NCBI GenBank assembly: GCA_021813405.1
Contig: JAKAKS010000022.1
Location: 1-64,000, forward strand
Origin: Nitrospirota bacterium
Lineage (GTDB): Bacteria > Nitrospirota > Thermodesulfovibrionia > Thermodesulfovibrionales > JdFR-88
Direction of reading: 5' to 3'
DNA length: 64,000 nt
Part shown: one piece after another, positions 17,285-20,846 of the stretch
Layout: each line of letters starts with the position of its first letter
Numbering within the stretch: position 1 is the first letter of the stretch
Translations under genes and position numbers: made by a program
Notes under the pieces: generated by a model
The model's database searches: none
What the model saw: only the letters and a program-made list of their open reading frames with translations
What the model was told of the DNA's origin: nothing

Positions 17285-18036
17285 ATAAGACCTCCTGACA
17301 GGCAGAATTACTCAGGAATGTACTTCCTGGAAAAATTGTAGCACGCCCCGCGCCTTATTAAAGAGGAAGTTTCAGAACATGCCCGGCCGGGATGGCCCCG
17401 GAGGAAGCGGCTTGCAGGGGCTGACCCTGTTTACCGTCTGATAGCCGCAAACAAAAAACCCATGACGCAAACTTCATGACATGTGTCATATGGACAATGT
17501 CATTTCCAGGCGGGTATGATGGCGGTGTGGTGGGCAACCCACACCGGCTTGCGGCTATGGAACATTCCCCTAAAAAACCTCACAGGCAGGGCAAGGAATT
17601 GGCAATGCGTCAAAATGGATTCACGATTGCAGCAAGCGGGCATTGCGGCCTGACGGGAAAGGACGAAATTGTCCCGCCTGGGCAGGACTGCGCGCATGGA
17701 TGCCATAAAATACAAAAATCCGTAAGGCCGTGAAAAAACAAGATATTGGGCCTGTTCCACCGGCTTTTGGGCAGAAAAGGGCAAATTCTTTTAAAATCAA
17801 AAACTTGGCAAGCAAACAGCAACCTGAAAAACAGGGAAAAGATGGAACAGGCGGAACAAAAAAAACGGACAAAAAACATTTTAAACCGGGCTGTTGCCAT
17901 TTTGGGTTGGAACATATAAAAAGAAAAGGCCCGGGCTCGTGAAAAACACAAGCCGGAAGAGCTGGAAGGCATATTGCTGGGCACCCGGACCCGTTTTTAA
18001 AAAAACGGGCCGTTTTGAAGTAAAATATATAACGTT
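17285..18036. other. Long gap with a duplicated 43-bp element
   Basis: 750 bp without a convincing coding gene. It holds copy A of a 43-bp element (17461-17503), a -10-like TATGAT, a hairpin (17523-17544: GGTGTGG and CCACACC around an 8-nt loop), and a 17990-18009 inverted repeat of CCCGTTTTT type just before the selenoprotein gene. Short frames exist (for example one starting at 17605 behind AAGGA, MRQNGFTIAASGHCGL...), but none shows conserved features. Confidence 0.5.
17461..17520 (+). promoter_or_regulatory. Conserved 43-bp element, copy A, with -10 box
   Basis: 17461-17503 matches copy B (37339-37381, reverse complement) at 37 of 43 positions. It contains the dyad ATGACATGTGTCAT (17477-17490) and a second half-site set GGACAATGTCAT. 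A TATGAT -10 lies 11 nt behind the element, and a hairpin follows. The form TGAC-N4-GTCA fits a CRP/FNR-superfamily activator. No gene start lies close downstream, so a small RNA is the likeliest target. Confidence 0.5.
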
Positions 18037-18210
18037 ATGATGTGCAAGGACAAAGAGTGCGGCGGCAGGATAGAGCCGGTTTTCGGCTGAAGACTGGTCA
18101 AGTTGCGCTGCATGGACTGCGGCCTTGATTACAGCATACATGACTATCTGGAAGAGATAGACGACGAGCTGTGGGAGAGGATTTCAAGACGGCCGGCAAA
18201 CAGGGCATAA
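18037..18210 (+). CDS. Probable small selenoprotein with two Cys pairs (in-frame TGA)
   Basis: A 58-codon frame (57 residues) interrupted only by TGA at 18088-18090. Around it the reading is protein-like: MMCKDKECGGRIEPVFG, then U18, then RLVKLRCMDCGLDYSIHDYL and an acidic helix. Cys pairs are C3/C8 and C25/C28. It resembles, from memory, a family of very small 'dual CXXC (seleno)proteins'; I could not verify this. Support for selenocysteine is a hairpin at 18098-18128 right after the TGA, with G in the second position of a 5-nt loop, 22 nt from the TGA, which fits bacterial SECIS rules. The 3' end overlaps the next gene by 40 bp. The alternative is a nonsense-mutated gene. Shine-Dalgarno weak. 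Confidence 0.6.
18098..18128 (+). promoter_or_regulatory. Candidate bacterial SECIS hairpin
   Basis: Upper stem GCTGCA (18107-18112) pairs with TGCGGC (18118-18123), one G-U, around the loop TGGAC. A lower stem TCAAG (18098-18102) pairs with CTTGA (18124-18128), with a 4-nt bulge on the left side only. The TGA ends 7 nt before the lower stem and 22 nt before the loop. E. coli fdhF has the same plan: a GG-containing loop closed by a short GC stem about 17 nt after the UGA. Confidence 0.55.
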
Positions 18211-18812
18211 CCGGCGAGGTTATCAGGCGGATAGCCTCGCTTTATGGGGAGATGGACCGGGCATATGCCGAGTTCGCGGGGGAGTACCGGCTGGACTGCG
18301 CCGGCTGCCGGGACAACTGCTGCACACAGCGCTTTTATCATTACACCCTTGCCGAGTATATCTTCCTGCTGGAAGGCCTGAAAAAGATACCGTTTGCAAA
18401 GAGGGACCTCATCATAAAGCGCGCCCGCGTGGTTGTGGGAAGCTATGCCCACGAAGCGCAGGCGGGTGAGATATTCAAGCTCATGTGCCCGGCCAATTTC
18501 GAGGGGCTGTGCGCGCTTTACTTCTGGCGCCCCATGATATGCAGGCTTCACGGCGTGCCTAATTTTTTTACAATGCCTGGGGGCGAAACAAAGGAAAGCG
18601 GCGGCTGCGCCGTACTTGCCGGAAAACACAAGCAGCCCGGCAGGCTGCTGGACAGGACGCCTTACTATTCAGCACTGGCGGCGATAGAAAAGGATTTAAG
18701 GCAGGGGCTTGGGTTCCGGCAGAAGCTGCGCAGGACAACGGCCCAGATGATCCTGGATATGGCTTTGGAACTGGATGTTGAGGGAGAGTTCTCTCCGGAA
18801 GGCGGGATATGA
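18171..18812 (+). CDS. YkgJ-type Cys-cluster protein
   Basis: 213 residues with a Cys cluster: LDCAGCRDNCCTQRFYHY, then FEGLCALYFWRPMICRLHGV and a late GGCAVL. The cysteines would bind zinc or an Fe-S cluster; YkgJ-like proteins have no settled role. The GTG at 18171 is the likely start, since the helix before the first Cys (RIASLYGEMDRAYAEF) looks conserved, but ATG 18252 is possible. It overlaps the selenoprotein gene by 40 bp and the response-regulator gene by 4 bp, so the four genes form one unit. A second YkgJ-like gene of different make-up lies at 59090. Confidence 0.78.
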   Translation: MGEDFKTAGKQGITGEVIRRIASLYGEMDRAYAEFAGEYRLDCAGCRDNCCTQRFYHYTLAEYIFLLEGLKKIPFAKRDLIIKRARVVVGSYAHEAQAGEIFKLMCPANFEGLCALYFWRPMICRLHGVPNFFTMPGGETKESGGCAVLAGKHKQPGRLLDRTPYYSALAAIEKDLRQGLGFRQKLRRTTAQMILDMALELDVEGEFSPEGGI

Positions 18813-19504
18813 CTGAAAAGCAGACGATTCTGGTTGTAGAGGACGAAAGAAAGATATCGGACATAATCAGGCTGTATCTGGAACGGGAGGGCTATCATTC
18901 GGAGATTGCCAACTCCGGCGAGGACGCCTTAAAACTTCTTAAAACAAATCCTTCGCTTGTGGTGCTGGACCTGATGCTGCCCGATATCCAGGGCGAGGAA
19001 CTCTGCGCAATGATAAGGCAAAGCTCCGACATTCCCATTATCATGCTTACGGCCAAAACAGGCGAGGACGATATTATAAAAGGGCTTTCGCTGGGGGCCG
19101 ACGACTACGTGGCCAAGCCCTTCAGCCCCGGCGAGCTGCTTGCCAGGATAAAGGCCCAGTTGAGGCGGCACAAGCGCCCATATACAAAGCTCAGCTTCAA
19201 CAAAGGCATGCTTGTGATAGACGTGCTGAAAAGAGAGGTGCTCCGGGGGGAACGGATAATACTGCTTACGCCATCGGAGTTTGGAATACTGGTGTCGCTG
19301 GCTGAAAAACCCGGCAGGGTGCTCTCCAGGCTGCAACTGGTAAACCTGGTGCAGGGATATGACTTTGAGGGGTACGAGCGCACCATAGACGCCCATATAA
19401 AAAATCTGCGGCAAAAGATAGAGGACGATCCCAAGACCCCCATGTTCATCAAGACCATCTACGGAGTAGGCTACAAGTTCATAGGCTCAAGGGATGAGGA
19501 GTAA
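18809..19504 (+). CDS. OmpR-family response regulator
   Basis: 231 residues: receiver domain (acid pocket E11/D12, phospho-Asp D54 in VVLDLMLPD, Lys in YVAKPFSP) and a C-terminal winged-helix DNA-binding domain (LTPSEFGILVSLAEKPGRVL, ending KTIYGVGYKFIG). It would bind DNA after phosphorylation by the kinase encoded next, whose start overlaps its end by 11 bp. ATGA overlap with the YkgJ-like gene implies joint translation. The signal is unknown; the gene order suggests a redox or metal input. Confidence 0.95.
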   Translation: MTEKQTILVVEDERKISDIIRLYLEREGYHSEIANSGEDALKLLKTNPSLVVLDLMLPDIQGEELCAMIRQSSDIPIIMLTAKTGEDDIIKGLSLGADDYVAKPFSPGELLARIKAQLRRHKRPYTKLSFNKGMLVIDVLKREVLRGERIILLTPSEFGILVSLAEKPGRVLSRLQLVNLVQGYDFEGYERTIDAHIKNLRQKIEDDPKTPMFIKTIYGVGYKFIGSRDEE

Positions 19505-20846
19505 GCTTTTCTGCGGCTTTCTTGCCGTAATCATTCTGGCCCTGTTCTCCGATGTGCTCTTTGAAAAACTGATTATCAGGGACTTTGGCGAGTACGGCAA
19601 AAGCGAGCAGCAGGACCACGTATACTGGCTTATCACGGCCGTGGAGAGCAGCTATACGTCGCAGGGCTGGAACAGACAGGCCCTTACGGACGCCCTTCAG
19701 TGGGCCGTTATGCTCCGCTTCGACTGCAGTATCCAGGACGAATCAGGCAAGGCCATAATGGACACAGACAGCGTAATACGCGGCCTGTCGGATTCCATGC
19801 GCAGGCGTCTTCAGATTGCCGGGCCGGAGGTAAAAACAGCAACCCCGTATGACAGTTATCCCCTCTTCCACAGAGGGCAGGAGATAGGCAGTTTCAACAT
19901 AAAAGACATGGCCGGTAAAAACCTGAGCCTCCGAAAGAAGGAGCATGCGTTCAGGGAAAGGGGAAGGGCTTTCCTTCTGCTTTCCTTCTCGCTGGCCGGA
20001 GGCAGCGCATTCTTCATGGCCCTTATCCTCAGCCAGTTCTTCTCCAGGCCGATAAGCGAACTTAAAAAAGCTTCAGAGGCCGTTGCAAAAGGGGACCTGA
20101 GCGTAAGGCTGGAAACCGGCACGGACGAGATAGGACGGCTTAAGGCGGCCTTCAACAGGATGGCCGAGGCTCTCCAGAGGGAAGATGCCCTGCGCAAACA
20201 CCTTACATCCAATGTGGCGCACGAGCTCCGCACCCCCCTTGCCATAATGAAAGCACGGGTGGAGGCGATGCTGGATGGCGTGCTTACTGCCAGCCCGGAG
20301 GAGTTCGAGCCGCTTTTGGCGGAGTTGGATACCCTCACCCGGCTTATAGGCGGCATAGAGGACCTCACTAAGGCCGAGGCGAGCTTCCTTAAAGTGAATA
20401 TGGAGGAGGTATGCCTTCATGACTTCCTCAGGGGGGTTACAGATTCACTGGCCCCAGTGTTCAAGGACAAGGGCCTCTCCCTGCAGCTGGCATCAAAGGG
20501 GGAGTTTGTGGTGCAAATGGATGTTGAGAAACTTGAAAAAACCGTCAGAAATATCCTGGTAAACGCTAAAAACCATACGGAAACCGGCGGGGTTTTCGTG
20601 GATTACGGCATCGAGGGCGGCAAGTATTTTATCGAGATAAAAGACACCGGAAAAGGCATTGCGGAAAAAGACCTGCCGCACATATTCCAGCGCTTTTACA
20701 GAAGCGGCGGCTCAAAAGGGTTCGGCCTGGGGCTGGCAATAGCAAAGGAGCTTTTGGCCACCATGGACGGAGACATTTCAGTAAGTAGCAAACAGGGCGA
20801 AGGCTCCGCATTCAAATTGTCCGTACCGCTAAACCAAACGGCATAG
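19494..20846 (+). CDS. Sensor histidine kinase with HAMP domain
   Basis: 450 residues. TM1 at ~7-25, a periplasmic sensing domain of ~130 residues (to ~155), TM2 at ~158-181, HAMP (~182-235), DHp helix with the phospho-accepting His243 in NVAHELRTPLAIM, and a HATPase_c domain with NILVNAKNHTE, DTGKGIAEKDLPHIFQRFYR and GFGLGLAIAKELL. The periplasmic part has no domain that I recognise. It pairs with the OmpR-type regulator upstream. Confidence 0.94.
   Translation: MRSKLFCGFLAVIILALFSDVLFEKLIIRDFGEYGKSEQQDHVYWLITAVESSYTSQGWNRQALTDALQWAVMLRFDCSIQDESGKAIMDTDSVIRGLSDSMRRRLQIAGPEVKTATPYDSYPLFHRGQEIGSFNIKDMAGKNLSLRKKEHAFRERGRAFLLLSFSLAGGSAFFMALILSQFFSRPISELKKASEAVAKGDLSVRLETGTDEIGRLKAAFNRMAEALQREDALRKHLTSNVAHELRTPLAIMKARVEAMLDGVLTASPEEFEPLLAELDTLTRLIGGIEDLTKAEASFLKVNMEEVCLHDFLRGVTDSLAPVFKDKGLSLQLASKGEFVVQMDVEKLEKTVRNILVNAKNHTETGGVFVDYGIEGGKYFIEIKDTGKGIAEKDLPHIFQRFYRSGGSKGFGLGLAIAKELLATMDGDISVSSKQGEGSAFKLSVPLNQTA

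Follow-up and report, generated by a model that had tools for sequence, protein, structure and literature searches.

In all probability, the stretch of DNA analysed here (the window, 64,000 nucleotides of contig JAKAKS010000022.1 from the Nitrospirota assembly GCA_021813405.1) encodes a small selenoprotein of family NF041197, in which an in-frame TGA specifies selenocysteine (Sec). This meaning of the TGA had been proposed in a sequence-only reading, and is supported by four computationally established lines of evidence: (i) the match of the protein to NF041197, (ii) the conservation of the TGA in homologs, (iii) the presence of the Sec machinery in the same genome and (iv) the constraint acting on the SECIS hairpin. 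The features of the locus are listed in Table 1.

Table 1. Features of the selenoprotein locus, in window coordinates, with the evidence for each.
Feature	Position	Strand	Evidence
Small selenoprotein gene (very probable), NF041197 member	18037..18210	+	Translation; family score; homologs in 52/61 genomes of the relatives set and 88/246 genomes of the phylum
In-frame TGA, probable Sec codon (residue 18)	18088..18090	+	TGA 83/88, Cys 5/88; invariant column
Apical SECIS hairpin, stem GCTGCA/TGCGGC, loop TGGAC	18107..18123	+	Fold; pair conservation and codon bias in 67 homologs
Extended SECIS-like stem-loop with lower stem TCAAG/CTTGA	18098..18128	+	MFE -14.0 kcal/mol; z = -2.14 versus synonymous recodings
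YkgJ-like (CxxCxxCC) Cys-rich protein, 213 aa	18171..18812	+	ORF; conserved downstream position; relatives match PF03692
OmpR/PhoB-type response regulator	18809..19504	+	PF00072 and PF00486; downstream in 12/12 genomes of the bacterial family
Sensor histidine kinase (HAMP, HisKA, HATPase)	19494..20846	+	PF00672, PF00512 and PF02518; after the regulator in 12/12 genomes

Reading frame and family assignment

Translation of 18037-18210 (+) gives MMCKDKECGGRIEPVFG*RLVKLRCMDCGLDYSIHDYLEEIDDELWERISRRPANRA*, where the first asterisk is the TGA. These 57 residues and a stop are interrupted only at codon 18, in agreement with the 58-codon frame that had been described from the sequence, and ordinary gene callers miss it. 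The protein has Cys residues at positions 3, 8, 25 and 28 and Sec at position 18; its first Cys pair is a CX4C motif (C3 and C8, within MMCKDKEC) and not CXXC, and its second pair is CMDC. The CX4C motif (18037-18060) arises from a two-codon insertion that is restricted to the genus, being found also in the sister species, whereas the other aligned NF041197 members have CXXC.

With Cys entered at the Sec site, the protein scores 49.2 bits against NF041197 (NCBIfam; CxxC_Se_CxxC), the "dual CXXC motif small (seleno)protein" family, whose curated cut-off is 40 bits; a search of the translation against small proteins of this kind, which had been suggested earlier, thus gives a positive match. In a six-frame search of the genome, in which the TGA is not read, the score is 39 bits, just under the cut-off. 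The place between the two Cys motifs that holds Sec or Cys in NF041197 is taken here by the TGA of codon 18. A Pfam scan of the selenoprotein gave no match above cut-off, and its nearest named relatives, in a contig scan with an alignment narrower than the 52-row one used for the structure prediction (see below), belong to metagenome-assembled genomes of Nitrospirae/Nitrospirota.

The family is already catalogued among the small selenoproteins with two Cys pairs. Indeed, NF041197 corresponds to OS_HP3 in a 2026 review (PMC13188914), which credits Zhang and Gladyshev 2007, and it shares with the window protein its length, the Cys pairs, the Sec between them and a conserved C-terminal block, but has CXXC as first motif where the window genus has CX4C. 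The "hypothetical protein DW" found by deep-Sep in Desulfosarcina (PMC12013277) is assigned to NF041197 by the same review and likewise has Sec and Cys homologs, although it comes from another phylum and is likened to the window protein through this family assignment and not through its sequence. NF041197 is entered twice in the family table of PMC13188914, as OS_HP3 and as hypothetical protein DW, and the two entries look like one family.

Conservation of the TGA codon and the selenocysteine machinery

Among 61 genomes (the window's own and 60 relatives), the gene is present in 52, of which 51 have exactly one in-frame TGA and one has none. Once translated, the 52 sequences all align with the TGA in one column, except for L055, which has Cys (TGC) there, so that the column is invariably U or C; the two g34 species differ at this codon, one having TGA and the other TGC. 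In a phylum-wide sample of 246 Nitrospirota genomes, full-length matches were found in 88, excluding two weak matches inside long ORFs (G065 and G074). The TGA is kept in frame in 83 of these 88 homologs and replaced by Cys (TGC or TGT) in the other five. The sequence-only reading would have been undermined by homologs that all end before the TGA, or by a lack of Sec or Cys homologs across it; the homologs run across the TGA and include these five Cys forms.

If the TGA were an ordinary stop, a short peptide or leader of 17 codons would be made upstream, and the downstream part would be translated separately or not at all. In line with such a reading, no table-11 ORF of at least 50 aa is listed for the frame, and hairpins such as the one that follows the TGA are common in the window. 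It is nevertheless very improbable, given that neither TAA nor TAG occurs inside any of the 88 matches, that Cys stands at this position in five of them and that the protein is conserved on both sides of the TGA.

The Sec machinery is complete in the window genome, which encodes selA, selB, selD and a tRNA-Sec with a TCA anticodon (selC); a genome lacking selB or selC had been named as a result that would contradict the selenoprotein, and all four genes were found. Close to its start, the selD gene (L038, G000:C4:21832-22755) also contains an in-frame TGA (MSSCAG*AAKFS), which makes it another selenoprotein gene of this genome and a positive control. Reassignment of TGA to Trp or to another residue in this organism is extremely improbable in view of this machinery, of a homologous residue that is Cys and never Trp, and of neighbouring genes that are intact under table 11, with no internal TGA seen in those examined.

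The distribution of the Sec genes agrees with that of the two forms of the protein. Among the genomes with the TGA form, selA is present in 79 of 83; tRNA-Sec or selB occurs in each of the remaining four (G041, G097, G226 and G231), whose missing selA is therefore likely to reflect assembly gaps, and no TGA-form genome lacks all of the parts tested. In contrast, selA is absent or decayed in three of the five Cys-form genomes, and Cys forms go with the loss of Sec genes (Fisher's test of TGA or Cys form against selA, p = 0.003, shared ancestry ignored). In brief, (i) in G255 and G206, no selA, selB or tRNA-Sec was found above cut-off, (ii) in G257, selA and selB occur only as broken pieces, with tRNA-Sec still above cut-off, and (iii) G249 and G050 retain the Sec machinery. 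With fragmentary selA and selB and the family gene in its Cys form (contigs C97 and C105), G257 has apparently been caught while losing the use of Sec. In G050 (contigs C20, C27 and C41), two selB-like genes and two tRNA-Sec matches, all above cut-off, accompany the Cys-form gene, and one selB (C20:13633-15489) and one tRNA (C20:15540-15631) form an adjacent pair.

The SECIS hairpin and its constraint

SelB, carrying the Sec-tRNA, would decode the TGA of codon 18, assisted by the SECIS hairpin, in which the apical stem would start 16 nt after the TGA. The stem-loop at 18098-18128 that had been noticed from the sequence, with its stem GCTGCA/TGCGGC and its loop TGGAC, was recovered by folding the 42 nt after the TGA, at -14.0 kcal/mol with the lower stem included. 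The bSECIS model (PMC13188914) requires a loop of 3-9 nt, a stem of 4-16 bp, a G in the first two loop positions, a distance of 16-37 nt from the UGA and an MFE of at most -7.5. The window hairpin lies within these limits, with a loop of 5 nt, a stem of 6 bp, a G at loop position 2, a spacing of 22 nt between TGA and loop and an MFE of -14.0 with the lower stem, the apical stem alone (-7.0) being slightly too weak for the -7.5 limit if the lower stem is left aside. Compared with synonymous recodings, the window's own hairpin is only mildly unusual (p = 0.115 for the apical part and 0.03 for the whole); the mean z of hairpin energy against such recodings is -1.84.

A hairpin alone was rejected as proof of a selenoprotein. 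Indeed, 65 of the 1603 TGA triplets of the window are followed by a hairpin at least as stable that satisfies the limits on distance and loop, and a similarly open frame is present as well for 7 of the 65. The match to NF041197 and the conservation among homologs, unlike the lone hairpin, are far beyond chance.

Four of the six stem pairs (17-31, 18-30, 19-29 and 20-28, numbering from 0 the bases that follow the TGA) can be drawn in all 67 Sec homologs, and the remaining two in 85% and 97% of them. The stem overlaps the conserved RCxxCG/CxxCG motif of the protein, so that the pairing is partly dictated by the protein, and synonymous codon choice was therefore used to separate out the protein constraint. 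Within the hairpin, Cys is encoded by TGC in 124 cases and by TGT in 10, compared with 86 and 48 where Cys codons lie upstream of it in these genes (p = 1.5e-8, relatedness ignored), and Arg-24 is encoded by CGC in 45 of 45 cases, compared with CGC in 67 of the 352 Arg codons at other positions (relatedness ignored). In two Cys forms (L104 and L106) the apical hairpin no longer folds; other Cys homologs retain an apical-like CTGCA...TG(C/T) sequence, as expected since the protein constraint contributes.

This codon constraint also bears on the idea that the gene is a decayed one, in which a nonsense mutation turned a Cys codon (TGC or TGT) into TGA. Although Cys homologs do exist, as this idea presupposes, it has hardly any likelihood: the TGA form is in the majority and spread over many families of the phylum, the codons within the hairpin are constrained, and the sister species differs from the window gene over the frame by only three codons, two of them synonymous and one non-synonymous.

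Predicted fold, gene neighbourhood and possible function

The product would be a small soluble protein with a zinc-ribbon-like fold built on its two Cys pairs, and Sec would lie between these pairs, in the turn of a beta-hairpin. In the AlphaFold model (52-row alignment, Sec entered as Cys; pLDDT 81.9), strands 11-16 and 21-25 are followed by two helices, and residue 18 is in the turn between the two predicted strands. A fold search against the PDB returned no significant match (best E 0.74); the weak ones include several zinc ribbons and other small proteins that bind zinc. The best of them, ZifS from Thermus (8yoz), is a small zinc-binding protein, but the match is not significant (E 0.74) and ZifS has no Sec. 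With no PDB fold match reaching significance, the zinc-ribbon-like fold and the redox role are both weak inferences. A thiol/selenol redox protein seems the most likely kind of product, in which Sec would cycle against a Cys and which may act together with the overlapping Cys-rich YkgJ-like protein; the chances that the selenoprotein has a redox role are about even.

At its 3' end, the selenoprotein gene overlaps the beginning of the YkgJ-like gene, which is likely to be translationally coupled to it. PF03692 is matched by relatives of this downstream gene (6.5e-06), which is separate from the selenoprotein, whereas the window copy is under the cut-off (14.3 versus 23 bits). The YkgJ-like gene is directly downstream in 12/12 genomes of the bacterial family and in 5/40 loci elsewhere (17/52 overall). 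Upstream, about 750 bases (17285-18036) are without a convincing gene and end in a hairpin and T run (~17985-18020) that resembles an intrinsic terminator and has no Rfam match; the Rfam scan of the window found only a tRNA.

All 12 genomes of the bacterial family share the gene order selenoprotein, YkgJ-like protein, response regulator, histidine kinase, and the two-component system next to the gene had been taken earlier as a hint of redox sensing. That hint is borne out only in part: this neighbour is constant within the bacterial family but absent beside most homologs elsewhere, this response regulator being nearby in only 2 of the 40 loci outside it, and a link to two-component redox sensing was accordingly rejected as a general property. 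Other genes recur in the neighbourhood: what is presumably a YacP-kind NYN-domain gene lies near the selenoprotein gene in 7 of the 12 genomes of the bacterial family and at 9 loci belonging to other families, and a presumed PAP2-like membrane protein gene in 8 loci, both names coming from a reading of the sequences and not from a domain scan. YacP (PF05991) was looked for in the window genome and not found, which places the NYN gene outside the window's own cluster. In other lineages the adjoining genes are presumably purH, rpsT or unrelated ones, so the cluster is a lineage feature and only a lead to function.

The conserved four-gene order would suit a selenoprotein that acts as a sensor or switch for the downstream two-component system rather than as an enzyme or redox carrier. 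With this response regulator so rarely nearby outside the bacterial family, and with purH, rpsT or other genes beside the homologs of other lineages, such a role is quite unlikely. It is somewhat less doubtful, yet still improbable, that the selenoprotein and the YkgJ-like protein could form a redox or metal-handling unit feeding the two-component system, within the conserved cluster of this Nitrospirota family and often with an NYN/YacP-type gene.

The finding of an NF041197 selenoprotein at this locus is more a confirmation of what is already known than a revision of it. It adds the CX4C first motif of the window genus and, in its bacterial family, a conserved cluster headed by the selenoprotein gene. 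The gene is widespread in Nitrospirota (88 of the 246 sampled genomes), where it tracks the presence of the Sec machinery. The exchange of Sec and Cys, including a genome that is apparently losing selA and selB, offers a natural test of what Sec contributes, and the lineage-specific gene cluster provides a handle on the function of the orphan family NF041197.
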